Position numbers and translations under genes: made by a program | The notes under the pieces: model-generated | What the model saw: only the letters and a program-made list of their open reading frames with translations | Told to the model about the DNA's origin: nothing | Database searches by the model: none | Origin: Moraxella haemolytica | GTDB taxonomy: Bacteria > Pseudomonadota > Gammaproteobacteria > Pseudomonadales > Moraxellaceae | NCBI RefSeq assembly: GCF_030177935.1 | Contig: NZ_CP089974.1 | Coordinates: 1,736,001 to 1,800,000, forward strand | Direction: 5' to 3' | DNA length: 64,000 bases | Shown here: positions 8,250 through 23,492 of the stretch, piece after piece | Numbering within the stretch: position 1 is the first letter of the stretch | Layout: each line of letters opens with the position of its first letter

Positions 8250-8325
8250 ACCGACGGTGCGACGAATACAATACCCGCAAGGGGAATAAGTCCGCCTAAT
8301 TGTGTATAGGTTTTGAGCCGTTGGT
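8250..8325 (+). ncRNA. c4: C4-type antisense RNA, module 1
   Basis: The 76-base core is closed by ACCGACGG (8250-8257) against CCGTTGGT (8318-8325). Inside is a CCC-GCAA-GGG hairpin with a GNRA tetraloop (8274-8283) and a second hairpin CCTA / TAGG whose loop ATTGTGTA (8299-8306) is the exact complement of TACACAAT at 8399-8406, covering the start codon of the antirepressor. TTTTGAG (8311-8317) pairs with TCAAAA at 8387-8392. Both targets also occur near the transcript start: CTCAAAA at 8133 and TACACAA at 8144. The a'/b' against a1/b1 and a2/b2 layout and the size match the C4 RNA of phages P1 and P7 (about 77 nt). An upstream hairpin ATCAC / GTGAT followed by ATTTTT lies at 8156-8180. Confidence 0.88.
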
Positions 8326-8404
8326 CTCCTAATTTAAGGGTACATCAATTTGCCGTACCCTTTCAAATTAGGAAAATTTAACCCTATCAAAAAGGTAATA
8401 CACA

Positions 8405-9175
8405 ATGCAAACTTTAACTTTCCAAAACATCACTTTAACCCCTGCCAAAGTGGATAACCAAATTTGGCTTACTTCTGCTGAGCTTGCAAAAGCGTTGGGT
8501 TATTCTCGTTCTGATGAAGTAAATAATCTTTATAATCGCAAAAAAGATGAGTTTACCGCCAATATGACCCAAACGGCTGAAATCCAAACCAAAGGCGGTT
8601 TACAGCGTGTTCGCATTTTCTCCCTGCGTGGTTGCCACCTTATCGCCATGTTTGCTCGCACCAAAGTCGCCAAAGAGTTCCGTCAATGGGTGCTAGATAT
8701 TCTTGACAAGGAAGTTGGTCAGCCTGTACAAGTCAAATCCACCGCCACCGACCGCACCCCACTTCGTCAAGCGGTAACCGCCCTAGTTGCCAAATATGGG
8801 CTAATGCACGATGAAGGCTACCGTCTGGTACATCAGTATATGGGTGTAAACAGCATTGATGAAATCCCCATAGATGATTTGCCAGAGGCGGTTGCCTATG
8901 TGCATCGCTTAATGCTTGGGACGATAAATGACCGTGAATTGTATGATGTGTTGGTAAGTTGTGCCATACATCTAAAACAGTTTGGTACCATGCTATCAAG
9001 TTTGCACGCTCATGGTTATTATGCCGATGATGATAACCCCATTGACCCTGCGACTCGTTGTTATAACTACCTTGTGCGTGTGGTGGATAAGATGAACTTG
9101 CGTAATATACATGGTGTGCCAATGTTTGCAAATAATAAAATAAATTTTTACAATGGCTTTTCAAGACCGATTTAG
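8405..9175 (+). CDS. phage antirepressor, Bro-N type, 256 aa
   Basis: Residues 1-105 form a Bro-N / antirepressor N-terminal domain (IWLTSAELAKALGYSRSDEV ... FSLRGCHLIAMFARTKVAKE). Residues about 118-180 are a domain shared with the antirepressors at 11413 and 23493 (PLRQAVTALVAKYGL ... AVAYVHRLML), resembling ORF6C. Antirepressors of this type inactivate CI/C2-like repressors. Translation should be blocked by the C4 RNA upstream, since the antisense target includes its start codon. A large hairpin (8329-8372) lies between C4 and the gene. Confidence 0.85.
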   Translation: MQTLTFQNITLTPAKVDNQIWLTSAELAKALGYSRSDEVNNLYNRKKDEFTANMTQTAEIQTKGGLQRVRIFSLRGCHLIAMFARTKVAKEFRQWVLDILDKEVGQPVQVKSTATDRTPLRQAVTALVAKYGLMHDEGYRLVHQYMGVNSIDEIPIDDLPEAVAYVHRLMLGTINDRELYDVLVSCAIHLKQFGTMLSSLHAHGYYADDDNPIDPATRCYNYLVRVVDKMNLRNIHGVPMFANNKINFYNGFSRPI

Positions 9176-9219
9176 GTTGGTTGGATTTGAAATTTATTTA
9201 TAATCCCCAAAATACCTCC

Positions 9220-9311
9220 TTGACACCACGATACCCTGTGGGGTATGATAATGCTAGTATGGCATTAAGTGTCAATAAGGCGATTATCCGTTTTGGGTAG
9301 TTGCCTTTTTT
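9220..9311 (+). ncRNA. small RNA gene, copy A
   Basis: TTGACA and TATGAT are spaced by 18 bases, with the dyad ATACCC / GGGTAT lying over the -10 box. A small hairpin AATGC / GCATT follows, and only about 50 bases after the probable start comes an 11-base-pair stem (9279-9289 with 9295-9305) with T6: a strong terminator. The predicted RNA is about 55-60 bases. A copy with three differences over 97 bases is at 15383. No coding frame is visible. The role is unknown; a C4-related leftover, decoy or independent small RNA are all possible. Confidence 0.7.
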
Positions 9312-9342
9312 GTTGCCTCAAACACTGCCAACACACAAAGCA

Positions 9343-9376
9343 AAACCCCAACTGACGGCAATCGGTTGGGGTTTTT
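9343..9376 (+). terminator. intrinsic terminator
   Basis: ACCCCAAC pairs with GTTGGGG across a 12-base loop and is followed by TTTTT. It isolates the antirepressor / small RNA unit from the frameshifted membrane gene and HNH gene downstream. Confidence 0.75.
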
Positions 9377-9413
9377 AATTCAACCCTTTTAATGCAGAAA
9401 AGGATTAAATCTT

Positions 9414-9588
9414 GTGAGTAATTATAGCAAGTTTTTGATAAAAATACTAGGATTTACAATGCAATCCATCAATTTCAAACCTGAAAATTTCATCAGATTT
9501 TTTTTGGCATATTTGTTTTATGATTGCGTTTTTAATGGTGGTGTCGTTGGCTATTACGATTGTTAAGTTTTATCTCGGTATTCAATAG
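9414..9588 (+). pseudogene. small membrane protein, frameshifted in a T8 tract
   Basis: Starting at GTG 9414, the first 30 residues (FLIKILGF ... ENFIRFF) parallel the intact 57-aa protein at 10615-10788. At a run of eight T bases (9498-9505) the frame breaks into an unrelated ending. Removing one T restores a transmembrane segment (MIAFLMVVSLAITIV) and a length of about 57 residues ending at TAG 9586. It may be a decayed paralogue, a phase-variable gene or a sequencing error in the homopolymer. It lies just ahead of the HNH gene. Confidence 0.55.
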
Positions 9589-9600
9589 GGAATTGTAACA

Positions 9601-9963
9601 ATGCCAAAGACACCTTGCCGAGCCATTGGTTGCCCCGCCCTTGTCAGCCGTGCGGACAAAGGTTTTTGTAGCGACCACGCCCACCACAGGCACGGTTGGC
9701 ACAAGAGCCATCAAGGTCGCACCAATAAAGAGCGTGGCTACGGGCAGGCGTGGCGGAAACTAAGAACACAAGTGCTGGTGCGAGACCGACACTTGTGCCA
9801 AGTCTGCTTGGCTGACGGCAGGTACACGCCTGCCACCGAAGTGGATCATATCATCAATAAGGCAAGCGGTGGCACAGATGAGCTGACGAACTTACAAGCA
9901 ATCTGCCACGCCTGCCACAAGACCAAGACACAAGCCGAGAGCCACAGGGGTGGGGGTGGGTAA
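9601..9963 (+). CDS. phage HNH endonuclease, 120 aa
   Basis: The N-terminus has paired cysteines (CRAIGCPAL ... CSDHAH). The HNH core is at residues 60-105: LCQVCLADG, TEVDHIINKASGG and LQAICHACHK, giving the zinc-binding CxxC pairs and catalytic histidine. HNH nucleases next to terminase genes are required, with terminase, for cutting at cos in HK97-type phages. It lies 83 bases ahead of the small terminase, and the intergenic stretch 9964-10046 may hold cos. Confidence 0.92.
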   Translation: MPKTPCRAIGCPALVSRADKGFCSDHAHHRHGWHKSHQGRTNKERGYGQAWRKLRTQVLVRDRHLCQVCLADGRYTPATEVDHIINKASGGTDELTNLQAICHACHKTKTQAESHRGGGG

Positions 9964-10046
9964 AAAGTTCCGAGCCTTTCGCCGTAGAACCTACCTCCTA
10001 GCCAAATTTTTACAACCGCGAAATTAAAAGTTTAGGGAGTTGGAGA

Positions 10047-10532
10047 ATGGGTGGAATTGCGACAGTTGCAGGGCGTGGGCGAAAACCTAAGCCAACCAAA
10101 TTAAAAGAGCTGAACGGCAACGCTGGCAAGCGTGCTTTAAATAAAAATGAGCCACAATTTGACAAGATTATGAACATTGAACCGCCAGAATGGTTAGAGC
10201 CGTTGGCGGTGGAAATGTGGCAAAGGGTCGTTCCCCAGTTGTGTGCCAATGACTTGCTTACGGTTGGGGATTTGCACAATGTGGAAGCCTTTTGCACGGC
10301 GTATGCACGGTGGCGACAATCGCAAATTGAAATCAATAATTATGGCGTGGTTGTGCCACACCCAGAGACTGGGGTTTTACAAAAAAATCCTGCCGTTACG
10401 GTGATGAATGAAACCGCCCGACAACTGGTAACTTTTGGGTCGCTTTTGGGGCTTGACCCTGCTAGTCGCACACGGCTGACAGGTGGGACAAAGAATGAAA
10501 CGATGGGCAATCCGTTTGCAGAGTTTTTATAA
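10047..10532 (+). CDS. terS: terminase small subunit, P27 family, 161 aa
   Basis: The protein has the P27-family pattern: GRGRKPKPTKLKELNGNAGKR near the start, then PPEWLEPLAVEMWQRVVPQL and the C-terminal GLDPASRTRLTGG. The small subunit recognises phage DNA at cos and directs the large subunit. The ATG follows GGAG by six bases. Unusually, two C4-antirepressor modules (10792-12393) separate it from the large subunit gene, so the two subunits are not directly coupled. Confidence 0.93.
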   Translation: MGGIATVAGRGRKPKPTKLKELNGNAGKRALNKNEPQFDKIMNIEPPEWLEPLAVEMWQRVVPQLCANDLLTVGDLHNVEAFCTAYARWRQSQIEINNYGVVVPHPETGVLQKNPAVTVMNETARQLVTFGSLLGLDPASRTRLTGGTKNETMGNPFAEFL

Positions 10533-10544
10533 AGTGTAAAAAGC

Positions 10545-10577
10545 AAAACCCCAACGCTGGCAGGCATTGGGGTTTTT
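10545..10577 (+). terminator. intrinsic terminator after terS
   Basis: CCCCAA pairs with TTGGGG over a 12-base loop, followed by TTTTT. It would end late transcription before terL unless antiterminated. Confidence 0.75.
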
Positions 10578-10614
10578 ATTATCCAATTAACCACGACTTA
10601 ATGGGACAATATTT

Positions 10615-10788
10615 ATGTCTAATAATAAACGATTTTTGATAAAATTGCTAGGGGTTTTTATGATAGAAATTACCAATGTAACACCTGAAAAGATTGGAAA
10701 GTTGCTTTGGAAAATTACAGCAATGATTTGTATCATTATTATGTTTGTTAAATTGCCTGATTATATCAATGCCGTTAAATGGTGGTAG
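10615..10788 (+). CDS. small membrane protein, 57 aa
   Basis: The frame begins MSNNKRFLIKLLGVF and has one hydrophobic segment near residues 32-47 (ITAMICIIIMFV). It is the intact paralogue of the frameshifted gene at 9414-9588. It lies between the small terminase terminator and the promoter of C4 module 2, three bases upstream of it. No family is recognised. Possibly an accessory gene brought in with the antirepressor module. Confidence 0.5.
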   Translation: MSNNKRFLIKLLGVFMIEITNVTPEKIGKLLWKITAMICIIIMFVKLPDYINAVKWW

Positions 10789-10791
10789 GGA

Positions 10792-10820
10792 TTGACAAAG
10801 GGCAATTAGTGGGGTATGAT
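10792..10820 (+). promoter_or_regulatory. promoter of C4 module 2
   Basis: TTGACA and TATGAT are spaced by 17 bases, with 13 of those spacer positions plus both boxes matching the module 1 promoter. GTGGGGTATGAT is common to both. It should drive the C4 leader into the truncated antirepressor at 11073. Confidence 0.8.
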
Positions 10821-10951
10821 GTGCCTACTACTAAATTCCAAAGCGGTATCAAATCTCGCCCCGAAAGAGCGTTATTTTTATGCCTGTAATTTGTGAACTG
10901 TGGTCATATGAACACAGTTGAGCAAAAACGCATAGCCACATTCGTCTTATG

Positions 10952-11027
10952 ACGGGTTGAGAGGCGTAATACAACACCCGCAAGGGAAATATGCCCGCCG
11001 TACTTTGGAACGGTAGTTGAGACCCGT
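10952..11027 (+). ncRNA. c4: C4-type antisense RNA, module 2
   Basis: The 76-base core is closed by ACGGGT / ACCCGT. It holds a GGCG / CGCC arm with CCC-GCAA-GGG (10977-10986) and the hairpin CCGT / ACGG. The loop of that hairpin, CTTTGGA (11003-11009), is the exact complement of TCCAAAG at 11056-11062, the ribosome-binding site of the gene at 11073, and of the same seven bases at 10837-10843 near the transcript start. TAGTTG (11014-11019) can pair with TAACTA at 11047-11052. An upstream hairpin AACTGTG / CACAGTT is present. Module 4 shows compensating changes at the stems and at loop plus target. Confidence 0.88.
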
Positions 11028-11181
11028 TGCCCTATCTGGGTAATACTAACTAAAATCCAAAGGAGACATTTTATGTCAAACCAAGTCCAAACCGTCAAAT
11101 TCTATGACGATGTCTTGATTACCATTGAGCAAGACAATATACAATATGTTGCCGTTCGCCCTATCGTAGAGAATATGGGGC

Positions 11182-11210
11182 TTGACAAAGTGGGTTTTTT
11201 ATTTTATAGT
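11182..11210 (+). promoter_or_regulatory. promoter of C4 module 3
   Basis: TTGACA and TATAGT are spaced by 17 bases. The -35 box lies exactly at the point where the reading frame of the upstream antirepressor loses similarity. A hairpin ATCGCT / AGCGAT with T6 follows at 11253-11276, an attenuator-like element. Confidence 0.8.
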
Positions 11211-11297
11211 ATTTGGCAAGGTGTTTCAAAACCATCGATTTTACACAGCGTGATCGCTACGCCTAGCGATTTTTTGTTGCCTATTACTTTCTGTTAT

Positions 11298-11363
11298 GGG
11301 CAAGATGGTGCATATCGTGAGAATGCACAGCCGACTGTGTACGGTGTTTTGAACATCTTGTCC
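11298..11363 (+). ncRNA. c4: C4-type antisense RNA, module 3
   Basis: The core is 66 bases, closed by GGGCAAGATG / CATCTTGTCC (one wobble). The GNRA arm of the other modules is replaced by a shorter hairpin GTGCAT / ATGCAC. The antisense hairpin CCG / CGG carries CTGTGTA (11335-11341), complementary to TACACAG at 11394-11400, overlapping the AGGAG site of the antirepressor, and to TACACAG at 11242-11248. GTTTTGAA (11346-11353) complements TTCAAAAC at 11225-11232 and TTCAAA near 11371. This is the most divergent module, but it keeps the full a'/b' logic. Confidence 0.82.
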
Positions 11364-11412
11364 ACCCTATTTCAAACTAGGGTTAAATCTCAATACACAG
11401 GAGTATTAGCCA

Positions 11413-12393
11413 ATGTCTAATCAACTTACTTCCATTGACTTTCACGGTCAAACTTTACTGGCAACCATTCAAGATAATGTGGTTTATACCGCACTTAAAC
11501 CAATTTGTGAAAATATTGGTTTATCTTGGAACGCCCAATTTGAGCGTATCAAGCGTGATGAAGTGCTTGCCGAAGGTATTCGTATGATACGAACACCTAC
11601 AAAAGGTGGTTTTCAAGATGTGGTTTGTTTGCCATTAACACTTTTGAACGGCTGGCTATTTGGTGTAGATACAAACCGTGTCAAAGCCGAAGTCAAAGAA
11701 ACGCTCATCACTTACAAAAAAGAGTGCTATCAAGCCTTACACGACTACTGGAACAATGGCATAGCCGTCAATCCACGCCTTACCAGTGCCGACACCCTAC
11801 CACTCCGCAACGCCATCAATATGGCAACAGGGATTTTAAAACTGGACTATGCCACGATTTATAAAATGGTACATCAAAGATTTGGCATTACCGACCACAA
11901 AGGCTCAAAGATTAAAATCTTGACCAAAGAACAAATTGGGCAAGCAGTGGAGTATGTGCATAGTTTAATCCTATCTGCCCCAAAACAAGACGAACTGGAT
12001 TTGGCAAACATCTTAAATAGTGAAACCAAACGCTTTGCCGAACATTATAACCGTATGACTTGGTTGGCTCGCTGTGCTGACGGTGTGAGTGATAAAACAT
12101 TCTTTGATAACCGTGATGATGGCGAACATATCGCAGGGTTATTTGTGAAAAATCTGCTCACACAATATCGCTTTGAAGTTGAGTTTGATGAAGGGCATCA
12201 CGATAACGGTTCATTAAAACTCAAACCCATCAGTAAACAAGCCTTTTACAGCGATTTGCCCAGTCTACCCAATGTGCTACAACAACAAATCAATTCAAAA
12301 CTTGCGTATCGCTCCAAACTTAGCGAAACCGATGTTGATACGCTGTGTCAAGTGATAGATGTGTGTAGATTGGCAGTTAAGCACAGTTTATAG
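11413..12393 (+). CDS. phage antirepressor, P22_AR_N type, 326 aa
   Basis: Residues 1-115 are a P22 antirepressor N-terminal domain (VVYTALKPICENIGLSWNAQ ... LPLTLLNGWLFGV). Residues about 132-195 are the ORF6C-like segment shared with the other two antirepressors. The C-terminal third (FLDN-type region, residues 205-326) is unlike theirs and may give repressor specificity. It is controlled by C4 module 3: its AGGAG site lies in the antisense target. Located between the terminase genes. Confidence 0.87.
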   Translation: MSNQLTSIDFHGQTLLATIQDNVVYTALKPICENIGLSWNAQFERIKRDEVLAEGIRMIRTPTKGGFQDVVCLPLTLLNGWLFGVDTNRVKAEVKETLITYKKECYQALHDYWNNGIAVNPRLTSADTLPLRNAINMATGILKLDYATIYKMVHQRFGITDHKGSKIKILTKEQIGQAVEYVHSLILSAPKQDELDLANILNSETKRFAEHYNRMTWLARCADGVSDKTFFDNRDDGEHIAGLFVKNLLTQYRFEVEFDEGHHDNGSLKLKPISKQAFYSDLPSLPNVLQQQINSKLAYRSKLSETDVDTLCQVIDVCRLAVKHSL

Positions 12394-12470
12394 GTCAATC
12401 ATATCCAAAAATACCAAACGCCCTACACGGTTTGACTGTGCGGGGTGTTTGGCGTACAAAAAATTTGATT

Positions 12471-14165
12471 ATGAGTTTTCCAAATGTTGAACGAGCGGAA
12501 AAGTACGCCAAAGATGTCGTGGGTGGCAAAATCATCACAAACAAATGGATAAAATTGGCGTGCCAACGCCATTTTGACGACAAAAAGAAAAGCAAAAACA
12601 AGGATTATCCCTACAAGTTTGACCCCGCCAAAGCTGAACGAGTGGCAAAGTTTATCCAGCTTTTGCCCCATACCAAAGGCGAATGGGCAAGGCGTGGCGA
12701 AAAAATCCACCTTGAACCGTGGCAAGTGTTTGCTTGTTGTGTGCCGTTTGGCTGGGTCAAGAAGTCGGATAATTTACGCCGTTTTCGCACCATTTTTATT
12801 TTTGTTTGTCGTAAAAATGGCAAATCAGCCATCGCAGCGGGGGTGGCAAATTATATGTTTTGTGCCGATGGCGAGTTTGGGGCGGAAGTGTATAGCGGGG
12901 CAACCACTGAAAAGCAAGCGTGGGAAGTGTTTCGCCCTGCCAAACAGATGGTGGAACGCACACCACAGCTCAAAGAATATTTTGGCGTGGAAGTGAACGC
13001 CTCTAATATGAACCGCGTGGCAGACGGCTCACGCTTTGAACCTGTCATCGGCAAACCAGGGGACGGGTCAAGCCCCAGTTGTGCGGTCATTGACGAATAC
13101 CACGAACACAAAGACGATACCCTGTACGACACGATGGAAACGGGTATGGGGGCGAGAAATCAGCCGATTATGCTCATCATCACAACCGCAGGAGCAACCA
13201 TTGGCGGAGCGTGTCATCTGCTCTATCAAGATGCTCAAAAAATGCTTGATGGCGTGCTAGATATTGATGATATGTGGGCGATACTGTACGGTAAAGATAC
13301 AGACGATGCGTGGGATAGCGATGTTGCTTTGATAAAGGCAAATCCAAATTATAACATATCGGTATCGGGGGAATTTTTGCAAGCTCGCCAAAGAGACGCA
13401 AAAACTTCGGCACGCAAACAGTCGGTATTTCGCACCAAGCACCTAAATGAGTGGGTCGGAGCAAAAAATGCGTGGCTGAACATGGCAAAATGGCAACAAG
13501 CCCACGAGCGTAAACCCTTATGTGAGCTTGAAAACCGCCCCTGTTACATTGGGCTTGATTTGGCGACAAAGATTGACTTAAACGCCCTTATTTTGCTATT
13601 CCCACCAACTGCTGATGACCCTTATTATCACATACACGGGCGTTATTATCTGCCAGACGCTAGGGTGCTAGAAAGTATGGACGGCAACGCTGATCGCTAC
13701 CGTGCGTGGGATAATATGGGGCTAATGACCTTGACAATGGGCGAAGTGGTGGATTTTGAAGTCATCAAAGATGATTTAAGAGAATTTATGGGGCGGTTTG
13801 ATGTCCGTCAAATCGCCTATGACCCGTGGCAAGCCACACCGCTCGCCCAAGAAATGGAAAAAGAAGGGGCAACGATGGTGGAGCTACGCCATACTGTAAA
13901 AAATATGAGTGAGCCAATGAAAGAGCTAGAAGCCCTAATTTTGCAGGGTAAAATCGCCCACGGAGATTGTCCTGTGCTAACTTGGCAGGCGAGCAATGTC
14001 GTGGCGGTGGTGGATAAAAAAGACAATATCTATCCAGACAAAGAGCGAGCCGAAAACAAGATTGATGGCATTGTGGCTTTGATAATGGCTCTTGGGCGTG
14101 CCAAATTACACGCCCAAAGTGGGGGGAATATTGATGAGTATTTAGACAATATGGTGATTGCTTGA
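12471..14165 (+). CDS. terL: terminase large subunit, 564 aa
   Basis: The ATG at 12471 gives the usual start MSFPNVERAEKYAKDV; an earlier in-frame TTG at 12432 is less likely. The ATPase domain has a Walker A-like VCRKNGKSAIAAG (residues about 115-127) and a Walker B ending in CAVIDEYHEH. The nuclease domain has GLDLATKIDLNALILL (Asp) and a C-terminal ENKIDGIVALIMALGRA. It packages DNA into the prohead with HK97-like head proteins. Separated from terS by two regulatory modules. Confidence 0.96.
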   Translation: MSFPNVERAEKYAKDVVGGKIITNKWIKLACQRHFDDKKKSKNKDYPYKFDPAKAERVAKFIQLLPHTKGEWARRGEKIHLEPWQVFACCVPFGWVKKSDNLRRFRTIFIFVCRKNGKSAIAAGVANYMFCADGEFGAEVYSGATTEKQAWEVFRPAKQMVERTPQLKEYFGVEVNASNMNRVADGSRFEPVIGKPGDGSSPSCAVIDEYHEHKDDTLYDTMETGMGARNQPIMLIITTAGATIGGACHLLYQDAQKMLDGVLDIDDMWAILYGKDTDDAWDSDVALIKANPNYNISVSGEFLQARQRDAKTSARKQSVFRTKHLNEWVGAKNAWLNMAKWQQAHERKPLCELENRPCYIGLDLATKIDLNALILLFPPTADDPYYHIHGRYYLPDARVLESMDGNADRYRAWDNMGLMTLTMGEVVDFEVIKDDLREFMGRFDVRQIAYDPWQATPLAQEMEKEGATMVELRHTVKNMSEPMKELEALILQGKIAHGDCPVLTWQASNVVAVVDKKDNIYPDKERAENKIDGIVALIMALGRAKLHAQSGGNIDEYLDNMVIA

Positions 14166-14197
14166 ATTGACCGCCCTTTATGCAAAGTGGCGGTTTT

Positions 14198-14422
14198 TTA
14201 TTGGAGTTTTTTTAATGATTTGATTTCTTTCATAATGTCCGTTAATGCGTCTGTAATATCTATGTATTGGGTTGGTGGTTTTTGTTGTTGTTCTAAGCCA
14301 ACTTGCAACAAATGAACCGCCTGTGCATTAACAGAGCGTCCGTCATCTTTGGCTGACTTTTCTATTTGGTCTTTTAATTCTTGGGGAATGCGTAAGTTAA
14401 ATTGGGGGTCTGAACGAGCCAT
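14198..14422 (-). CDS. Arc/Mnt-like ribbon-helix-helix repressor, 74 aa
   Basis: Residues 1-50 form an Arc-type ribbon-helix-helix (PQFNLRIPQELKDQIEKSA ... RSVNAQAVHLLQ). In P22, Arc and Mnt control antirepressor synthesis from the immI region. Here the gene is divergent from the KilA-N gene at 14596, and a TAGTAC ... GTACTA dyad lies over the promoter of the latter. It therefore probably represses that gene and itself. The C-terminus is short and Gln-rich. Confidence 0.88.
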   Translation of the reverse strand: MARSDPQFNLRIPQELKDQIEKSAKDDGRSVNAQAVHLLQVGLEQQQKPPTQYIDITDALTDIMKEIKSLKKLQ

Positions 14423-14467
14423 AAAAGCACCTTTTGAAAAAATTTAAAAATATTTTAACAAAAATAC

Positions 14468-14563
14468 TTGACTTAATCAATAGTACAGTGCTATCATTAT
14501 CACCGTACTAACACGGTACGCAATAAAAAGCCCCTTGCAGACCGTCAAATCAAACAAGGGGCT
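14468..14563 (+). promoter_or_regulatory. promoter, operator and structured leader of the KilA-N gene
   Basis: TTGACT and TATCAT are spaced by 18 bases, with inverted half sites TAGTAC (14481) and GTACTA (14505). In the transcript, ACCGT / ACGGT (14502, 14513) can form a small hairpin. A perfect nine-pair stem AGCCCCTTG / CAAGGGGCT (14529-14563) carries another ACCGT in its loop that can pair with ACGGT, giving a possible pseudoknot switch. AGGA / TCCT at the ribosome-binding site may also fold. Confidence 0.65.
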
Positions 14564-14595
14564 AGAATACTAACCACTGATAAGGAAAATATCCT

Positions 14596-15180: not shown

Positions 15181-15380
15181 CAAAGGTCATCAATCACATC
15201 GACAAAACAGATTTAGCAGACACTCATTATTTGGCAAGTGGCTATTTTGAATGGATTGCCAAACTTATCCGTCAAGCCAAGCAAGACGGCGATCAAATCT
15301 TTTTAGACATTGCTGAATATTTGGCAGAAGGTCAATCTGATGATTTTTTGCAAAAAGGCAAAGATATTGAGCTGTCTTGA
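15177..15380 (+). CDS. small acidic phage protein, 67 aa
   Basis: The ATG overlaps the KilA-N stop codon (ATGA), so synthesis is probably coupled. The protein is mostly helical and acidic with a segment YFEWIAKLIRQAKQDGDQIF. No family is recognised. A modulator of the KilA-N protein is a reasonable guess from the coupling only. Confidence 0.6.
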   Translation: MTKVINHIDKTDLADTHYLASGYFEWIAKLIRQAKQDGDQIFLDIAEYLAEGQSDDFLQKGKDIELS

Positions 15381-15382
15381 TA

Positions 15383-15474
15383 TTGACACCACGATACCCT
15401 GTGGGATATCATAATGCTATTATGGCATTAAGTGTCAATAAGGCGATTATCCGTTTTGGGTAGTTGCCTTTTTT
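15383..15474 (+). ncRNA. small RNA gene, copy B
   Basis: This copy matches the element at 9220 with three differences over 97 bases: promoter TTGACA-18-TATCAT, AATGC / GCATT hairpin and the same 11-pair terminator stem (15442-15452 with 15458-15468) with T6. It begins three bases after the stop codon of the small gene and ends ten bases before the converging antitoxin gene. The -10 box is weaker than in copy A. Function unknown. Confidence 0.7.
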
Positions 15475-15484
15475 GTTGCCCAAA

Positions 15485-16098: not shown

Positions 16099-16117
16099 GG
16101 CGGTTTATCTCTGATTT

Positions 16118-16145: not shown

Positions 16146-16172
16146 ATAATTACAAGTGATTTTTTTGATTTT

Positions 16173-16197: not shown

Positions 16198-16217
16198 ATC
16201 GCAAAAAGGAAAATAAA

Positions 16218-17423: not shown

Positions 17424-17959
17424 CTTTACAAACAAAATCACTCTCATTTAAAGCCGAAAACCTACAAGATGACGGCACATTTAGCGGATATTGTAGCGTC
17501 TTTGATGTCAAAGACAGTTATGGCGATATTGTCAAGAAGGGTGCTTTTGTCAATTCTTTGAACGAATGGCAAGCCAAAGGCAAGATGCCCCCAATCCTAT
17601 GGCAACACAGCAGAAATGAAGTCATTGGCGTGTGGACAAAACTGTATGAAGACGATAAGGGGCTATTTGGCGAAGGTAAATTACTCATTGACGATGTCGC
17701 CAAAGCAAAAGAAGCCTACGCCCTCATCAAAAATGGGGCGATTGACGGACTGTCTATCGGCTATCGTAACGACAAGTGGGCGTGGAATGATGATGATAAT
17801 GTGCTTGAACTGTTGGAAATTGACTTAAAAGAAGTGTCAATCGTAACCTTCCCTGCCAATGAAGACAGTACCGTATCAAGTGTCAAAGCCGAAGCGATAA
17901 AAGCCAAAGATGCACAAAACGCCTTAAAAATTCTTGCCAATATTAACCAATCATTTTAA
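17420..17959 (+). CDS. prohead protease, HK97 family, 179 aa
   Basis: The pattern of the U35 family is present: FSGYCSVFDVKDSYGDIVKKGAF, PPILWQHSRNEVIGVW with the catalytic histidine, and IDGLSIGY with the catalytic serine near residue 113. It cleaves scaffold segments from the capsid protein during maturation. Its ATG overlaps the portal stop codon and the capsid gene follows after a terminator-like hairpin. Confidence 0.95.
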   Translation: MTLQTKSLSFKAENLQDDGTFSGYCSVFDVKDSYGDIVKKGAFVNSLNEWQAKGKMPPILWQHSRNEVIGVWTKLYEDDKGLFGEGKLLIDDVAKAKEAYALIKNGAIDGLSIGYRNDKWAWNDDDNVLELLEIDLKEVSIVTFPANEDSTVSSVKAEAIKAKDAQNALKILANINQSF

Positions 17960-17977
17960 ATTTTAAATCAACCCAAC

Positions 17978-18004
17978 GCCCTACTAACCGCTAGGGCTTT
18001 TTTA
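17978..18004 (+). terminator. terminator-like hairpin before capsid gene
   Basis: GCCCTA pairs with TAGGGC, followed by T6, immediately ahead of the AGGAAACATC ribosome-binding region of the capsid gene. Confidence 0.7.
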
Positions 18005-18017
18005 ATAGGAAACATCT

Positions 18018-19208
18018 ATGACCGACCAAACCACCAATTACACCGAACTTGCCAAAGAGTTTGCCCGTGCTACTGACAATGTCAAAGAAGTGGCGGAAGA
18101 TATTAAGGGCAAAATGGCAAATAATGAAAAGCTGTCCCAATACGCCATTGACAAGGCTGATGAAGCCCTAGTGTCAATGAATGATATTAAATTGCGACTT
18201 GATGAACTGGAACAAAAAGACGCACGCCGTGGCTCTGATGATACCGATTTTTGTACACTTGGCGAGAAGTTTGCCGATTCTGAAGCCTTAAAACAGCTAC
18301 AGGCTGACCCACGCGGTGTCAAGCAAGCCAAACTTGAAGTCAAAGCCAACATCACATCAGCCACGGCTGACGCCAATGGTTCAGCAGGCGTGCTAATCAG
18401 TGACCACCGAGTACCAGGTCTTGTTGTGCCACCTAATCGCCGAATGACGGTACGCGACTTGTTGATGGCGGGTTCAACTTCAAGCAACGCCATCACTTAT
18501 ATGCGTGAGACTGGGTTCACTAATGGTGCAGCCATTCAGCAAAACGAAGGTGACAAAAAAGCACAATCTGACATTAAGTTTGATGAGCAGACAGTCAATG
18601 TGGCAACCTTGGCACACTTTTTTAAAGCATCTCGCCAAATCTTGGATGACGCACCACAACTGGCAAGCCACATCAATGGTCGCTTAATCTATGGCCTAAA
18701 ACTGGTGGAAGAACAGCAGCTGCTCAATGGCGATGGACTATCAGGCAATCTAAAAGGTATCATCACTCAAGCAACAGCGTTCAACGATAAGGCAACACTG
18801 GCGAAATATACCATCATCGACCAGCTACGCCTTGCTATGTTGCAAGCGGTGTTGGCTGAATACCCTGCAAGTGGTCATGTACTAAACCCGATTGATTGGG
18901 CGAAGATTGAGCTTGCCAAAGATGACAATGGTCGCTACATCATCGGCAATCCACAAGGCACAGCAACGCCAACGCTGTGGGGCTTGCCTGTGGTAGCAAC
19001 CCAAGCAATGCAAGCGGGCAAATTCTTGACAGGTGCGTTTGACCTTGGCGCACAAATCTTTGACCGTCAAGATTCGACCGTGATGGTTGGTTTTGAAAAT
19101 GATGATTTTACGCGTAACTTGGTGACTATCCTAGCTGAAGAGCGTTTGGCGTTGGCGGTGTATCGCCCCGAAGCCTTTATTCATGGCACTTTGGCTGATA
19201 AAGTTTAA
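18018..19208 (+). CDS. major capsid protein, HK97 family, 396 aa
   Basis: Residues 1-95 form a coiled delta-like scaffold (NVKEVAEDIKGKMANNEKL ... RLDELEQKDARRG). The mature HK97 fold follows, with the family segments VPPNRRMTVRDLL, FTNGAAIQQNEGDKK, LAHFFKASRQILDDAPQL and EEQQLLNGDG near residue 235. It assembles the icosahedral head after cleavage by the protease upstream. Confidence 0.96.
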   Translation: MTDQTTNYTELAKEFARATDNVKEVAEDIKGKMANNEKLSQYAIDKADEALVSMNDIKLRLDELEQKDARRGSDDTDFCTLGEKFADSEALKQLQADPRGVKQAKLEVKANITSATADANGSAGVLISDHRVPGLVVPPNRRMTVRDLLMAGSTSSNAITYMRETGFTNGAAIQQNEGDKKAQSDIKFDEQTVNVATLAHFFKASRQILDDAPQLASHINGRLIYGLKLVEEQQLLNGDGLSGNLKGIITQATAFNDKATLAKYTIIDQLRLAMLQAVLAEYPASGHVLNPIDWAKIELAKDDNGRYIIGNPQGTATPTLWGLPVVATQAMQAGKFLTGAFDLGAQIFDRQDSTVMVGFENDDFTRNLVTILAEERLALAVYRPEAFIHGTLADKV

Positions 19209-19220
19209 CTCAACCAAAAG

Positions 19221-19250
19221 CCCTAGAAGTGGTTATTTCTAGGGTTTTTT
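19221..19250 (+). terminator. terminator-like hairpin after capsid gene
   Basis: CCCTAGAA pairs with TTCTAGGG, followed by T6, between capsid gene and the small head gene. Confidence 0.75.
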
Positions 19251-19264
19251 ACTAGGGGTTTTTG

Positions 19265-19492
19265 ATGAAATATAAAGTTATCCGCCAACATTATGGCGAT
19301 AAACAATACTTTGCAGGCGAGAGCCGAGAAGTTACCAACGAACACGATGCCAAGATTCTGATTAGCATGGGATTAATTGAACCAATCGCAGGCGAGAAAG
19401 CCAAGGCAGCACCAAAGAACAAGGCTGAGCCGAAGGTACAAAATAAAGCTGAGAGCGACTTGGATAATAAAGATGAACAAAATCACCCTTGA
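19265..19492 (+). CDS. small head-associated protein, 75 aa
   Basis: The protein begins MKYKVIRQHYGDKQYFAGES, a short beta-rich segment followed by a Lys/Ala/Asp-rich tail. Similar small proteins lie between capsid and connector genes in many HK97-type phages, but their role is not known to me. Its 3' end overlaps the next gene by 20 bases, which supports translation of both. Confidence 0.65.
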   Translation: MKYKVIRQHYGDKQYFAGESREVTNEHDAKILISMGLIEPIAGEKAKAAPKNKAEPKVQNKAESDLDNKDEQNHP

Positions 19493-19799
19493 ACAAGTCA
19501 AACATCAATGCCGAATTGAACACGATGACGAAGACCCTTTATTAACGCTTTACATCAATTCGGCATATCGGGCGGTGGAAAAATTTACCGACAAGACACT
19601 GTTTTTTGATGACATACCGATAGATAGCGACAAAGAGCGTTGTATTTTGCTTAGTGATGACATCAACCAAGCCTGCCTAATGCTCATCGCCCACTGGTAT
19701 GCCAACCGTGAAACGGTGGGGGCAAATATGGTAAACATTGCCAAAATGCCCTATGCGGTGGATTTTTTGTTAAGTCCATACCGATTTATGGGGGTGTAA
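19473..19799 (+). CDS. head-tail connector, gp6-like, 108 aa
   Basis: The start at 19473 (MNKITLEQVKHQCRIEHDDED) matches the usual start of HK97 gp6-type connectors; a longer upstream frame is an artefact of the overlap. The protein is mostly helical with LLTLYINSAYRAVEKFTDK and a C-terminal helix ACLMLIAHWYANRE. It forms the first ring under the portal. The order capsid, connector, head closure, gp10-like is conserved. Confidence 0.88.
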   Translation: MNKITLEQVKHQCRIEHDDEDPLLTLYINSAYRAVEKFTDKTLFFDDIPIDSDKERCILLSDDINQACLMLIAHWYANRETVGANMVNIAKMPYAVDFLLSPYRFMGV

Positions 19800-19800
19800 A

Positions 19801-20142
19801 ATGGCAATCGGTGCAGGACAGCTTCGCCACCGTGTGCAATTTTACCGCCAATCTACCACTCGCTCCGCCACAGGAGCGGTCAAAGTGGGACAATGGGAAC
19901 ACACCTTGACCCTTTGGGGGCAGTTTACGCCCCTATCGGTCAAAGACATCATCAAAGGGCAAGCCGAGCAAGTCAACATCACCGCACGAGCCACCATTCG
20001 CCACCGCACCGACATTGATGGCACCATGCGTGTGCAATATGCAGGGCGAATGTATGAGATTGTCGGTGAGCCTTTGGCGGATAATGGCAGTGGGCGTGAA
20101 TATCTCACATTAGTGCTAAAAGGGGTTGCCGATGAAGATTAA
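19801..20142 (+). CDS. head-tail adaptor, SPP1 gp16-like, 113 aa
   Basis: A short beta-barrel protein of the head-tail joining family: MAIGAGQLRHRVQFYRQS at the start, WGQFTPLSVKDII in the middle and RTDIDGTMRVQYAGRMYEIVGEPL near the end. It is expected to close the head exit channel. It starts one base after the upstream stop codon and overlaps the next gene by 11 bases. Confidence 0.9.
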   Translation: MAIGAGQLRHRVQFYRQSTTRSATGAVKVGQWEHTLTLWGQFTPLSVKDIIKGQAEQVNITARATIRHRTDIDGTMRVQYAGRMYEIVGEPLADNGSGREYLTLVLKGVADED

Positions 20143-20671
20143 GGGGATTGATGAGCTTAATAAAAAACTACACCAACTGCGTGATGAGGTGGGCAATAAA
20201 GATGCTGGCGGTGTGCTGTATTCGTCTTTGATGTTCGCCAGTACGCCGATGTACAAAACCATTAGAGCCAAAGCCCCTGTTAGTCCTGGCCCTTATCGTC
20301 GCTATATGTCAGGTGGTCAAGGCGATGGCTATTATTTTGATAAAAACGGCAAAAAACGCAGACGACGAGCCAAACGGGGAACGGGCAAATACCAAATGCA
20401 AAATCCCGAACTTTATAAAAAGTCTATCAAACGCAGACGGCTAACCAAAGGGGTTAGTGCCAACATAGACGGAGCAGCCATTGCCATTTATGTGGCGAAA
20501 AATACAGGCAAGACTTTTGGTGATGCGTATTATTGGTTTTTTAATGAATATGGCACAGCTTACCAAGCCCCACGCCCCATTTTTCGTCCGACATTTGATG
20601 GTGGCTATGCCAATGCAGAAGTCCGCTTTGCTAAAAAGCTCGGTGAGCGAATTGATAAGATTATGGGCTAA
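20132..20671 (+). CDS. HK97 gp10-like neck/tail protein, 179 aa
   Basis: The start at 20132 (MKIKGIDELNKKLHQLRDEV) is typical of the HK97 gp10 family; an in-frame TTG at 20126 is less likely. The middle is very basic (KNGKKRRRRAKRGTGKYQ), and the end has EYGTAYQAPRPIFRPTFD, a family hallmark. It is thought to act in tail completion or neck assembly. Overlaps the adaptor gene. Confidence 0.9.
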   Translation: MKIKGIDELNKKLHQLRDEVGNKDAGGVLYSSLMFASTPMYKTIRAKAPVSPGPYRRYMSGGQGDGYYFDKNGKKRRRRAKRGTGKYQMQNPELYKKSIKRRRLTKGVSANIDGAAIAIYVAKNTGKTFGDAYYWFFNEYGTAYQAPRPIFRPTFDGGYANAEVRFAKKLGERIDKIMG

Positions 20672-20674
20672 TCA

Positions 20675-20703
20675 TTGCTATTTTGTTTCTGATTGTGTAT
20701 GAT
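20675..20703 (+). promoter_or_regulatory. promoter of the membrane-protein moron
   Basis: TTGCTA and TATGAT are spaced by 17 bases, starting four bases after the preceding stop codon and leading into the gene at 20728. Confidence 0.65.
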
Positions 20704-20727
20704 GTTAAACACAATAGGAGTAAAATC

Positions 20728-21423
20728 ATGAAAAAAATCTTTAAAATCATCGCTATCATCATTGGCATTCTATTTGTGATTGGTGTGATTGGAGCAATCC
20801 TAGAGACTCCAGAACAAAAAGCAGAACGAGAAGCTAAGGCTGCCACCGAAAAGGCAGAAAAAGAAGCTCAACACGCCATCAAGCAGGCAGAAGCTGACGC
20901 AAAAGCCAAAGCTGAGACAGAAAAAGCCGCCAAAGAACAAGCAGAAAAAGAAGCTGAACTGGTTGCTGACTTTGGTATGACCCCGCAAGAACTTGGCAGA
21001 GGCATCGATCAAAGAATCAAAGATGTCATGAATGTTGAGACAACGCTTGCTAATGTAAAAAGTGGCAGTATTTCTTTTGATATGGACTTAGGCGAAGGTA
21101 TCATCTGGAGTGGTAATGTCAATGAGCAAGGCAAAGCGTCTGCAACGAGCCTGCAAATGAAAATCAGAGAAGGCGATGAACAAGGGCGTGTGATGAGCTT
21201 GCTGTTACTGGTGGGTGCGACCGTGCAAGTGTTACACCCAGATTTACCGAACGAGCAAGCATCACAAAAAGTGGGTGAGATGACCGAAAAAGCCATTAAT
21301 AAAGCCCTAAAAACACAAGAAGCAGTAACAGAGAGCATTATGATTGGTGATATCAAGCACTTTATTGAAGTGTATCCGTCATCTGGTGTTATTAAGATTG
21401 GTGCTGCTCATAAAGACCAGTAA
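20728..21423 (+). CDS. membrane-anchored coiled-coil protein (moron), 231 aa
   Basis: The start at 20728 has AGGAG ahead. A transmembrane segment at residues 5-24 (IIAIIIGILFVIGVIGAIL) is followed by a charged coiled coil of about 60 residues (repeats of KAEKEAQ type), then a globular domain (residues 90-231). It interrupts the connector genes, has its own promoter and ends at a terminator, so it is probably expressed in the lysogen. Possible roles are envelope alteration or phage exclusion; no family is recognised. Confidence 0.7.
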   Translation: MKKIFKIIAIIIGILFVIGVIGAILETPEQKAEREAKAATEKAEKEAQHAIKQAEADAKAKAETEKAAKEQAEKEAELVADFGMTPQELGRGIDQRIKDVMNVETTLANVKSGSISFDMDLGEGIIWSGNVNEQGKASATSLQMKIREGDEQGRVMSLLLLVGATVQVLHPDLPNEQASQKVGEMTEKAINKALKTQEAVTESIMIGDIKHFIEVYPSSGVIKIGAAHKDQ

Positions 21424-21440
21424 TTAATTCATTTTCAATT

Positions 21441-21468
21441 AAAACCGTTCCCTGTGAGCGGTTTTTTT
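21441..21468 (+). terminator. terminator-like hairpin before tail completion gene
   Basis: AACCG pairs with CGGTT over an 11-base loop, with T7. It ends the moron transcript and sits before the next late gene. Confidence 0.7.
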
Positions 21469-21486
21469 ATTGCCAAAGGAAATCTC

Positions 21487-21837
21487 ATGACCGCAAGCGA
21501 ACGCATATACAGCCTATTAGCCGATCTGGTCGCTGGGCGGTGTTATCCGCTGTTCGTGCCAGAGAGCGAAAACAAGCCCCCGCCTTATGTCGTGTATAGC
21601 ATCATCTCCAATCTACCAGACAACACCCTAGACGGCATCACAGGTCATGAGTGGGTGCGGGTGCAGATTGATGTTTATACCAATGACTATGACAGCACCC
21701 TTGAGCTTTCCGCCAAAGCCGTGCGAAAACTGGATACCATACAGCCGTCCGTCTATGGCGGTACGACCTATTTGCACGATGATGGGCTATGGCGTGGGCT
21801 GATTGAATACGAATTTTGGCAAACTTTGCCAGATTGA
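21487..21837 (+). CDS. tail completion protein, DUF3168, 116 aa
   Basis: The start at 21487 has AAAGGAAATCTC upstream. The protein matches DUF3168 / HK97 gp11-like pattern: ASERIYSLLADLV, RCYPLFVPESENKPPPYVVY and HEWVRVQIDVYTNDYDSTLEL. Such proteins cap the tail tube end that joins the head. The upstream in-frame codons derive from the terminator hairpin and are not part of the gene. Confidence 0.88.
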   Translation: MTASERIYSLLADLVAGRCYPLFVPESENKPPPYVVYSIISNLPDNTLDGITGHEWVRVQIDVYTNDYDSTLELSAKAVRKLDTIQPSVYGGTTYLHDDGLWRGLIEYEFWQTLPD

Positions 21838-21958
21838 TTTTTTTACCACCAACCAACTGACAGGAGAATAATATGTCAGATCTACAGTAGTAGAAATTTA
21901 AAGACAGTCGTTAGACTTATCCACCATTTTACCACAATCAAGCAATAGGAGTAAAAAA

Positions 21959-22393
21959 ATGTCAGCAGAAAATACCAAAGACAGCTTTTATCAGCTGTGG
22001 GTGTCTGAGACGGGCGCGTCAGGCACCTTTAAAAAAATCAACCGCCTAACCAAGGCGGCACCGCCCAACGAAGCCAAAGTGCTGGACGAAATCACCGCCA
22101 CCGATGATCGTCGTACAGTCAAGGCAGCGGTGGATTTTAAAGAAGAGTCTGAGGTTGAGTTTGAATATGTACTACTGCCTGATGACGAGACACATCAGCT
22201 GCTACAGACGGGCTTTGATACGGGTAAAGAGCTGTATTTTCAGTATAAATTCGTAGAAGCGCCAGCAGAAAGCCGTGAATTTAAAGGTATGATTGCTGAG
22301 CTGACCACCGATGGCGAAGACACCAAAAAGAAACTTCGCAAAAAAGGCAAAATCACCATCACGGGTGAAGTTAAAAAAGAACTCACCGTCTAA
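21959..22393 (+). CDS. major tail tube protein, 144 aa
   Basis: The protein is the right size and position for the siphophage tail tube subunit; segments such as DEITATDDRRTVKAAVDFKEESEVEFEYVLLPDD and FKGMIAELTTDGEDTKKKLRKKGKITITGE fit the beta-rich lambda V / gpV-like fold. AGGAG lies nine bases upstream. Ahead of it, at 21865-21890, a second ribosome-binding site leads to a five-codon frame starting ATGTCAG, perhaps a leftover of a rearranged start. Confidence 0.88.
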   Translation: MSAENTKDSFYQLWVSETGASGTFKKINRLTKAAPPNEAKVLDEITATDDRRTVKAAVDFKEESEVEFEYVLLPDDETHQLLQTGFDTGKELYFQYKFVEAPAESREFKGMIAELTTDGEDTKKKLRKKGKITITGEVKKELTV

Positions 22394-22407
22394 ATCAACT
22401 TACCACC

Positions 22408-22432
22408 AAGCCCATCCTATTGATGGGCTTTT
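22408..22432 (+). terminator. terminator-like hairpin after tail tube gene
   Basis: AAGCCCATC pairs with GATGGGCTT, followed by TT and a T-rich stretch. Confidence 0.6.
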
Positions 22433-22454
22433 GTTCTAAAAAAAGGAAAAAAAT

Positions 22455-22787
22455 ATGACCGCATTAACTAAAGCTGCTATTTTAGCTGCCATCGCAACAA
22501 CACCCATCCTAAAAGAGATTAATGGCTTTGGCGAAGTTTACTTGAAAAAATTGACAGTCGCTGAACAAGGCGAGCTTGCCAAACAGGGTGAGAAAACTGA
22601 CAATGTTACCGCCAGTCTGTACATGGTGGCATATTCGCTGTGCGATGAAAATGGCAAACGCCTATTTAATGATAACGATGTCAAAGAACTAGGCAATCTA
22701 ACCGCTGAACAGATGACCGCCATTGTCGGTGCAATTAGTGAAATCAATGGCTTTGACGCCAAACTTGATGACATTAAAAAAAACTAA
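22455..22787 (+). CDS. tail assembly chaperone, G-like, 110 aa
   Basis: The product is an acidic helical protein in the place of lambda gpG (FGEVYLKKLTVAEQGELAKQG ... TAIVGAISEINGFDAKL). Its last codons are AAA AAA AAC TAA, which form a canonical slippery heptamer. A share of ribosomes should slip -1 there and make the longer G-T product that recruits tail tube subunits to the tape measure. It has AAAGGAAAAAAAT upstream. Confidence 0.9.
   Translation: MTALTKAAILAAIATTPILKEINGFGEVYLKKLTVAEQGELAKQGEKTDNVTASLYMVAYSLCDENGKRLFNDNDVKELGNLTAEQMTAIVGAISEINGFDAKLDDIKKN
22778..22784 (+). promoter_or_regulatory. programmed -1 frameshift site, A AAA AAC
   Basis: In the G frame the codons are AAA (22779) and AAC (22782) just before TAA. 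A -1 slip lets both tRNAs re-pair with AAA and reading continues CTA ATC AGC. The -1 frame is open from 22778 to 23128, with no stop between the slip and the T part. Confidence 0.88.
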
Positions 22788-23128
22788 TCAGCGATAAAGA
22801 CCGCCGTTTTTTGTTCAAGCTTGCCGCCCATCTTGGTAAGACGGTGGGCGAGCTTGAACGCACACTCACGGTGGTCGAGCTTGTCGAATGGCAAGCGTAT
22901 GATGCCATTGATCCTATTGGAGGTTATCGCACCGATTTAGGCTTTGCTTTGCTTGCCTATCTGCAAGCTGGCGACAAGAACAAATCCGTGCATGATTTTT
23001 TGATCATTGATCCAAATCCAATGACCGATGAGATGCGTGAAGTCTTTGAGAAAGAGCAAGAAAAAATCAAGGTGCGACAAGAAGTGGCGGCAATGATTGC
23101 GATGTTTAATCGGCTTGAAAAAGGGTAA
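22778..23128 (+). CDS. T part of the G-T frameshift tail chaperone
   Basis: This frame has no good start codon and ribosome-binding site of its own (only TTG at 22811) and is expected as the C-terminal part of a 224-residue G-T protein joined at 22784. It begins LISDKDRRFLFKLAAHLGK and contains LVEWQAYDAIDPIGGYRTDLGFALLAYL, a pattern of minor tail T proteins. In lambda-like phages gpG and gpGT in set ratio are needed for tail assembly. Confidence 0.88.
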   Translation, partial: KKLISDKDRRFLFKLAAHLGKTVGELERTLTVVELVEWQAYDAIDPIGGYRTDLGFALLAYLQAGDKNKSVHDFLIIDPNPMTDEMREVFEKEQEKIKVRQEVAAMIAMFNRLEKG

Positions 23129-23191
23129 GAAATTCAGGTGCGGTTATGATGACCATACCTGCCTGTATGATAAAGGCAACTACCTATAGCC

Positions 23192-23217
23192 AGCAAGCAA
23201 AAACGCTTGCTTTTTTT
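23192..23217 (+). terminator. intrinsic terminator after chaperone genes
   Basis: AGCAAGC pairs with GCTTGCT over a six-base loop, followed by T7. It precedes C4 module 4. The TATAAT at 23233-23238 that drives this module lies directly downstream. Confidence 0.8.
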
Positions 23218-23367
23218 ATCAACCTAAGTTAGTATAATCTTACTACTAAAAACTCAAAGCGGTATCAAATCTCGCCCCGTCAGAGCGTTATTTTTATGCC
23301 TGTAATTTGTAAACTGTGGTCATATCACCACAGTTGAACAAAAACGCATAGCCACATTCGTCTTATG

Positions 23368-23445
23368 ACGGGTTGAGAGGCGTAATACAACACCCGTAAG
23401 GGAAATATGCCCGCTGTGTCTTTGAGTACAGTAGTTGAGACCCGT
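23368..23445 (+). ncRNA. c4: C4-type antisense RNA, module 4
   Basis: The 78-base core is closed by ACGGGT / ACCCGT and has CCC-GTAA-GGG (23393-23402) and the hairpin CTGT / ACAG. Its loop CTTTGAGT (23420-23427) is the exact complement of ACTCAAAG at 23475-23482 (ribosome-binding region) and at 23252-23259 (5' end). TAGTTG pairs with TAACTA upstream of the target. Compared with module 2, stem CCGT/ACGG became CTGT/ACAG, and loop and target changed together. The promoter has TATAAT (23233) but only a weak -35 in the terminator T-run. Confidence 0.88.
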
Positions 23446-23492
23446 TACCCTATTTTGGGTAATACTAACTAAAAACTCAAAGGAGACATTTT

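Follow-up and report, generated by a model that had tools for sequence, protein, structure and literature searches.

Antisense RNA modules of the sRNA-Xcc1 family with matched loops and targets in a Moraxella prophage resemble the immunity switches of phages P1 and P4

Sequence analysis has revealed four antisense RNA modules within one prophage of Moraxella haemolytica, with an intact antirepressor gene behind three of them. The modules lie in a stretch of 64,000 nucleotides (nt) of contig NZ_CP089974.1 (positions 1,736,001 to 1,800,000), here called the window, whose own numbering is used below. In each module the P3 loop of the RNA is exactly complementary, over 7-8 nt, to two sites, one near the beginning of the leader and the other where translation of its own gene starts (ribosome-binding site or start codon); loop and target match over at least 7 nt at 8 of the 8 sites in the window (four 5' and four 3'). 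The modules very probably represent self-regulating antisense-RNA immunity switches working like C4 of phage P1 and CI of phage P4, a reading to which a probability of about 0.85 can be attached. This kind of switch is known from both phages; here it occurs in a widespread and hypervariable form, which is also found ahead of SymE toxin genes.

An earlier note on this DNA had placed four C4-type switches in the prophage, each loop complementing two sites in its own transcript. The four modules are real, with core starts that agree within 2 nt with the matches to Rfam family RF02221 (sRNA-Xcc1), and the twofold complementarity was recovered at every site. The C4 designation stood in part: loops and targets change together and the RNAs adjoin antirepressor-family genes, but no match to RF01695, the C4 family of Rfam, was obtained.

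Antisense RNA modules in the window

Three of the cores score above the gathering score of RF02221 (53 bits) in cmscan, namely those of module 1 (8249-8334, 68.3 bits), module 2 (10950-11037, 59.6 bits) and module 4 (23366-23455, 54.9 bits). The core of module 3 (11299-11370) is divergent and falls below it, with 26.1 bits. For RF01695, which has a gathering score of 45 bits, no match was listed at E≤5 in window positions 7900-24400, whereas the P1 and P4 positive controls do match. Rfam C4 was therefore rejected as a family name for these modules.

All features of the modules are on the forward strand. Module 1 starts with a promoter-like site (8092-8120; TTGACA, 17 nt, TATGAT; 11 of 12 consensus letters), followed by a 5' target (8133-8150) made up of a linker target, CTCAAAA (8133-8139), and a loop target of 7 nt, TACACAA (8144-8150). 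A terminator-like hairpin (8156-8180; ATCAC...GTGAT ATTTTT), overlapped by ACGG/CCGT, separates this target from the core, the loop of which is ATTGTGTA (8299-8306). The 3' target TACACAAT (8399-8406, 8 nt) extends into the start codon of a gene for a Bro-N antirepressor-family protein of 256 amino acids (8405-9175). In module 2, a promoter-like site (10792-10820) and the 5' target TTCCAAAG (10836-10843, 8 nt) precede the core with its loop ACTTTGGAA (11002-11010), and the 3' target TCCAAAG (11056-11062, 7 nt) is at the ribosome-binding site. The open reading frame (ORF) behind it (11073-11420) encodes only an N-terminal remnant of about 38 amino acids of a P22_AR_N antirepressor, aligning to profile positions 2-33 of 115; its frame continues across the leader of module 3 and overlaps the start of the module 3 gene.

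The promoter-like site of module 3 (11182-11210) is located within this ORF. It is followed by the 5' target TACACAG (11242-11248, 7 nt), a terminator-like hairpin with a T run (11252-11278), the core with its loop ACTGTGTA (11334-11341), the same heptamer TACACAG at the ribosome-binding site (11394-11400, 7 nt) and a P22_AR_N antirepressor gene of 326 amino acids (11413-12393). Module 4 has TATAAT at 23233-23238 without a good -35 element, as read from the sequence. Its target ACTCAAAG is present both 5' of the core (23252-23259, 8 nt) and at the ribosome-binding site (23475-23482, 8 nt), the loop is TCTTTGAGTA (23419-23428), and a P22_AR_N antirepressor gene of 272 amino acids (23493-24311) follows.

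The order of promoter-like site, core and gene on the same strand is common to modules 1-3, in which the -10 end of the promoter-like site lies 16-32 nt upstream of the loop target. These sites are consensus matches only, with 20 in the stretch compared to 7.7 in shuffles. The arrangement suggests that the core and gene of each module are cotranscribed. By protein family, the genes of modules 1, 3 and 4 are predicted antirepressors (Bro-N, P22_AR_N and P22_AR_N, respectively). The proposal that each switch guards a different antirepressor is weakened by module 2, which has a remnant only.

The cores of modules 2 and 4 are otherwise alike, and between them the stem changes from CCGT/ACGG to CTGT/ACAG while the loop and both targets differ together, exactly as the earlier note had described; the change is read directly from the sequence.

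Matching of loop and target in other genomes

RF02221 matches are present in 13 of the 22 genomes of the genus (E≤0.01), in 44 of the 199 genomes of the family (E≤0.001) and, at the level of the phylum, in 55 of the 398 genomes sampled (E≤0.0001). In total 170 loci were oriented, with the P3 loop picked from structure alone, and collapsing those identical in the loop and the first 45 letters of the core left 163. Enough flank was available in 160 loci for a given side and in 157 for both sides. The position-constrained hairpin picker errs in a few rows, all of which were kept in the counts.

The loop matches its own 5' flank over at least 7 nt in 109 of the 160 non-redundant loci and its own 3' flank in 78 of 160; both flanks are matched in 66 of 157 loci and at least one in 118 of 157. 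Loops taken from other genomes reach the same length in 4.3% (5' flank) and 3.2% (3' flank) of 9600 trials each. The median distance from the 5' site to the core is 91 nt. A second antisense segment is formed by the linker after P3, which matches its own flanks in 84/160 (5') and 39/160 (3') loci, against cross rates of 9.1% and 5.0%. In a looser test with the whole antisense stretch, a match of at least 7 nt was found in the upstream flank of 154 of 167 loci and in the downstream flank of 113 of 167; the corresponding cross rates are high (29% and 17%) because linkers are shared.

The strongest evidence for covariation comes from loci in which the rest of the RNA hardly changes. Among 72 loci of one genus, taken to be Pseudoxanthomonas, 29 conform to a fixed P3 frame with at least 90% similarity in the core upstream of P3. 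These 29 loci, from 11 genomes, carry 17 different loops, and in 27 of them the loop matches the 5' site of the same locus, whose distance hardly varies (-77 to -88), compared to 3.2% of 464 trials with other loops. The covariation of loops and targets that the earlier note had put forward is thus borne out well beyond the window. A comparable allelic series was found in viral contigs with the core type of module 1, in which 17 contigs carry five loop types. Fifteen of these match their own 5' flank over at least 7 nt (in L299 the flank is incomplete and L300 reaches 6 nt), and 8 of the 17 match the 3' stretch at this length. The loop of module 3 recurs in two further loci (L309 and L310), ahead of a gene with a different start sequence.

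These results bear on the proposals made for sRNA-Xcc1 homologues (PMC12189769) and for the Group 1 RNAs of Acinetobacter (PMC5320573), according to which such RNAs would chiefly regulate host or chromosomal genes in trans. The many RNA copies per genome speak for such a role. A general host target, however, would not couple changes of the loop to a site about 80-100 nt upstream, and the variable loop matches its own flank in three quarters of the loci (118/157) and its own 5' site in nearly all loci with a near-constant core (27/29). Regulation of host genes as the chief function is hence very improbable.

Two groups of loci deserve mention on their own. In the genus g77 (L065, L106, L111, L115-L118, L152 and others), dispersed RF02221 modules mostly have a matched 5' site, and a 3' match in few. 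Another group (L156, L160 and L164-L167), with a core of the form A(A/G)CCGGGG(C/G)TTG... and RF02221 scores below the cut-off, has no 7-nt loop match on either side and may be a different RNA.

Proposed mechanism

In the switch model, a single promoter would give rise to a transcript carrying, in order, a target copy at its 5' end, a terminator-like hairpin (as in most relatives), the antisense RNA with its three stems, another target copy overlapping the ribosome-binding site or start of the gene, and the antirepressor gene. The RNA core would be excised, presumably by RNase P, and accumulate, as suggested by P1 C4. In the lysogen, the P3 loop, aided by the linker after P3, would act in trans on new transcripts by pairing with the 5' copy, which would favour early termination, and with the 3' copy, which would block translation. 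Both pairings would keep the antirepressor off, and would presumably bear on the phage repressor in this way. The differing target of a relative would be silenced less or not at all, allowing the antirepressor of that relative to act.

Among the 109 loci with a 5' match, 108 have this match at least 45 nt from the core, and in 75 of these 108 leaders a terminator-like hairpin follows the 5' site, compared to 5.3% of shuffles. Antisense-controlled attenuation combined with blocking of the ribosome-binding site is favoured for this reason. Folding of 93 non-redundant leaders with a hairpin by rule, some of them from an added genus, gave a mean terminator probability that rises from 0.54 to 0.85 when the target and 3 nt are blocked, and of 0.56 with a control block. 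In individual leaders, the target block raised the probability by more than 0.2 in 43 and lowered it in 3, whereas the control block raised it in 11.

Several observations nevertheless count against the model or parts of it. In 82 of 160 loci no 7-nt 3' match is present in the stretch tested, and in the constant-core set none of the 29 loci reaches even 6 nt on the 3' side; blocking of the ribosome-binding site is therefore not general. A 7-nt 5' match is missing in 51 of 160 loci, some of which are wrongly picked loops. Within the window, hairpins are found by rule in modules 1 and 3, and none in modules 2 and 4. Blocking the target in module 1 lowers the terminator probability from 0.63 to 0.01, the opposite of what the model predicts, and the hairpin of module 3 is formed always, whether or not the target is blocked. 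Support for an antiterminator is weak. The letters just 3' of the 5' site can pair with the 5' arm of the hairpin in 96/108 leaders under a loose rule (39% of shuffles), and in a set of 136 non-redundant leaders a 4-base-pair complement was found in 64 (23% of shuffled windows) and the arm-swap test was positive in 50 (27%). With only modest support from these three tests, an antiterminator was rejected as a strict rule.

The absence of a hairpin by rule in two of the four window leaders would also suit another scheme, in which translation block alone operates as in P1, the 3' site at the ribosome-binding site being the real target and the 5' copy a decoy or a by-product of duplication. In each of the four window modules the loop is matched over 7-8 nt at the ribosome-binding site or start, and in the P1 annotation repression of translation is ascribed to a2/b2 pairing, with a1/b1 listed as putative. 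The survey speaks against this scheme, since the 5' match is commoner than the 3' match (109 versus 78 of 160), the constant-core loci keep the former in 27 of 29 cases and the latter in none, and most leaders have a terminator-like hairpin after the 5' site. Translation block on its own is considered unlikely. In the dual switch preferred here, attenuation is likely the general mode, to which blocking of the ribosome-binding site is added in modules with a 3' site.

Specificity between modules

The pairing of every loop with every target was compared, as the earlier note had suggested. The true assignment of loops to target pairs ranks first of the 24 possible ones by exact match, with a score of 60 and the next at 55, and by loop energy alone all 8 columns favour the pairing within a module. 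The loops of modules 1 and 3 match each other's targets over 6 nt, with -6.0 to -6.3 kcal/mol compared to -6.5 to -9.3 for their own, and those of modules 2 and 4 over 5 nt. Once stem and linker are taken into account, a target is paired best by the RNA of its own module in only 6 of the 8 columns, a further point against a clean set of switches: module 3 ties with module 1 on the 5' site of module 1, and module 4 outdoes module 3 on the 3' site of module 3. Mutual orthogonality of the modules is thus incomplete.

Selection for differing loops within one genome was examined by shuffling genome labels, with the seven duplicate-dropped loci included. Cross-matches of at least 7 nt were seen in 0 of the 51 pairs within genomes of the genus and in 9 of the 384 pairs between them (permutation P 0.31); the figures for a second genus are 6 of 139 and 44 of 1346 (P 0.84). 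As neither genus departs from label shuffling, special selection was not detected in them, and the mutually different loops of the prophage reflect general hypervariability. Competition between prophages, which the earlier note had proposed, may fairly be supposed by analogy with the heteroimmunity of P1 and P7. The natural sets of near-identical RNAs, which differ mainly in the loop and its matching site, allow recognition rules, cross-talk and competition between prophages to be measured directly.

Genes behind the RNA and orphan modules

The gene behind the RNA is variable. The first long downstream ORF was picked mechanically at 153 loci and 134 of these ORFs were scanned for protein families, 19 having been excluded by hand for a late start, the lack of a ribosome-binding site or running off the stretch. 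One ORF may match several families. Among the 134, matches were obtained to Bro-N (16), KilA-N (11), P22_AR_N (8), pRha (5), AntA (2), SymE (6) and the XAC0095 family (9). In Xanthomonas hortorum (L278), Pfam assigns the downstream gene to SymE, and the loop TCTTCGAG can pair with CTCGAAG, which lies at the ribosome-binding site of this symE gene; the 5' side is outside the stretch. Near-identical RNAs stand ahead of SymE in five and of Bro-N in four of the nine genes scanned, the Bro-N genes being located on contigs named Pseudomonas putida, Thauera and Delftia. RF02221 has the look of a cassette of C4/CI type whose cargo, SymE included, can be exchanged, and a possible route of regulation is suggested for the symE/sRNA-Xcc1 cassette of Xanthomonas.

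Tandem modules 350-600 nt apart occur in the window (10950-11370), in viral contig L290 (9066 and 9415) and in another genome (G009:C1:1557338-1558377). Both in the window and in L290, the first module of the tandem lacks a complete gene. Such nested or orphan modules, module 2 among them, could be functionless, decaying leftovers of recombination, an explanation only slightly less probable than its opposite. The reduction of the module 2 gene to a remnant argues for it, as does the similar tandem spacing elsewhere (349 nt in L290; three modules within 1.05 kilobases (kb) in G009). Against it, the RNA, the loop and both targets of module 2 are intact, with matches of 7-8 nt. A more far-reaching idea, which is speculative and rather doubtful at present, is that a constant RNA scaffold and a hypervariable loop co-inherited with its own 5' attenuator site form a general cargo-swappable specificity cassette in Pseudomonadota, protecting any following gene (antirepressors, SymE toxins or XAC0095 proteins). 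Gene-less tandem modules like module 2 would then be retained as a store of antisense specificities, able to silence those antirepressors of incoming relatives that match them, and the orphan modules would give the prophage a small immunity repertoire encoded in RNA.

Surroundings in the prophage

The modules are located among late genes of the prophage. Modules 2 and 3 lie upstream of the large terminase gene (12474-14165, with TerL domains), module 1 upstream of an HNH endonuclease-like gene and module 4 upstream of an ORF of 1359 amino acids resembling a tape-measure gene, the last two as judged by eye. A fifth antirepressor-like gene, with KilA-N and ORF11CD3 (14596-15180, forward strand), faces a small gene resembling Arc-type ribbon-helix-helix repressors (14198-14422, reverse strand; by eye), a pair that recalls the immI region of P22. 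The leader of this fifth gene contains a GC hairpin, with a weak PK-repBA match (E 0.0097) below the cut-off. At window positions 9220-9310, a promoter-like site (TTGACA, 18 nt, TATGAT) and a terminator-like hairpin resemble those of the modules but have no RF02221 match downstream; they may represent a decayed leader.

The source genome also has three RF01695 RNAs above the cut-off, all outside the window. Two of them (G000:C1:845122-845209 and 832247-832333) are at most 0.6 kb from RF02221 matches and have a linker match only, and the third, at 2045474, has loop matches on both sides as in P1.

Comparison with known systems

One close counterpart is the immI operon of P1 and P7 (c4-icd-ant), in which a three-stem RNA of about 77 nt likewise occupies the leader of an antirepressor operon. 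The P1 record (AF234172) annotates upstream a1/b1 targets, as putative, and a2/b2 targets at the ribosome-binding site. Unlike the window cores, P1 C4 matches RF01695 (68.8 bits) and not RF02221. In addition, the icd gene stands between the RNA and ant in P1, whereas the window antirepressors directly follow the RNA, and the P1 record has one module where the prophage has four. The C4 specificities of P1 and P7 differ (PMC5320573).

In P4 (seqA-cI-seqC), an antisense segment is similarly placed between upstream and downstream target copies. The antisense parts of P1 and P4 match both flanks in their records, and a hairpin with a T run is seen by eye after the 5' site in both. The terminator of P4 adjoins seqA. 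Like P1 C4, the P4 RNA belongs to RF01695 (74.9 bits) and not to RF02221. CI acts by premature transcription termination through pairing with seqA and seqC, and in the account cited it controls replication genes and not an antirepressor (PMC4825925). The 5' target copy as such is already known, given the a1/b1 annotation of P1, seqA of P4 and the separate 'c4-a1b1' motif listed by Weinberg 2010.

The isrK-STnc1160-orf45-anrP region of Gifsy-1 resembles the modules in having a terminated short leader RNA, then an RNA processed from the read-through transcript and sharing complementary sequence with the leader RNA, and then anrP (PMC4825925). It differs in that the short leader RNA, IsrK, promotes translation of anrP (PMC4825925); a leader RNA that activates rather than represses shows that the switch logic can differ, a point against the model. 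Among the matches listed for window positions 7900-24400, none was to RF01394.

Acinetobacter has already been described as carrying several C4-type RNAs with differing loops in a single genome (PMC5320573). The Group 1 RNAs of Acinetobacter baumannii, with 21 C4-like copies in one genome, have a variable a' loop and are apparently processed from longer transcripts (PMC5320573). They are members of RF01695, unlike the window cores, and phage or host targets have been proposed for them, the sections of that paper cited here describing no matched cis targets (PMC5320573). Of 29 RF01695 loci from the family, all 29 show a match of at least 7 nt between the antisense part and the upstream flank of the same locus, and 26 such a match with the downstream flank; cis targets are only weakly supported by these counts because cross rates are high (47% and 39%). 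Genomes of one genus, g15, which is probably Acinetobacter (G082, G085, G110, G122, G124, G130, G132, G138 and G142), have 19-25 RF01695 matches each, consistent with Group 1 RNAs.

The same Rfam family as that of the window cores, RF02221, includes sRNA-Xcc1 of Xanthomonas, found with symE in integron cassettes. It has been treated as a trans-acting, virulence-linked small RNA with symE as its neighbour (PMC12444791, PMC2996969), and the account of its position upstream of symE leaves the mechanism open in the part cited (PMC12444791). In Xylella, seven sRNA-Xcc1 homologues, five of them in a tandem cluster, have been read as vesicle-linked small RNAs (PMC12189769); judged by the data given here, they could be cassettes of the present kind. 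Among openly licensed PMC papers, none was found that deals with sRNA-Xcc1 together with an antirepressor. The matched loops and targets offer a testable cis function for an Rfam family that current accounts treat as a virulence small RNA acting in trans, and RF02221 is thereby tied to the classical immunity RNAs of P1 and P4.

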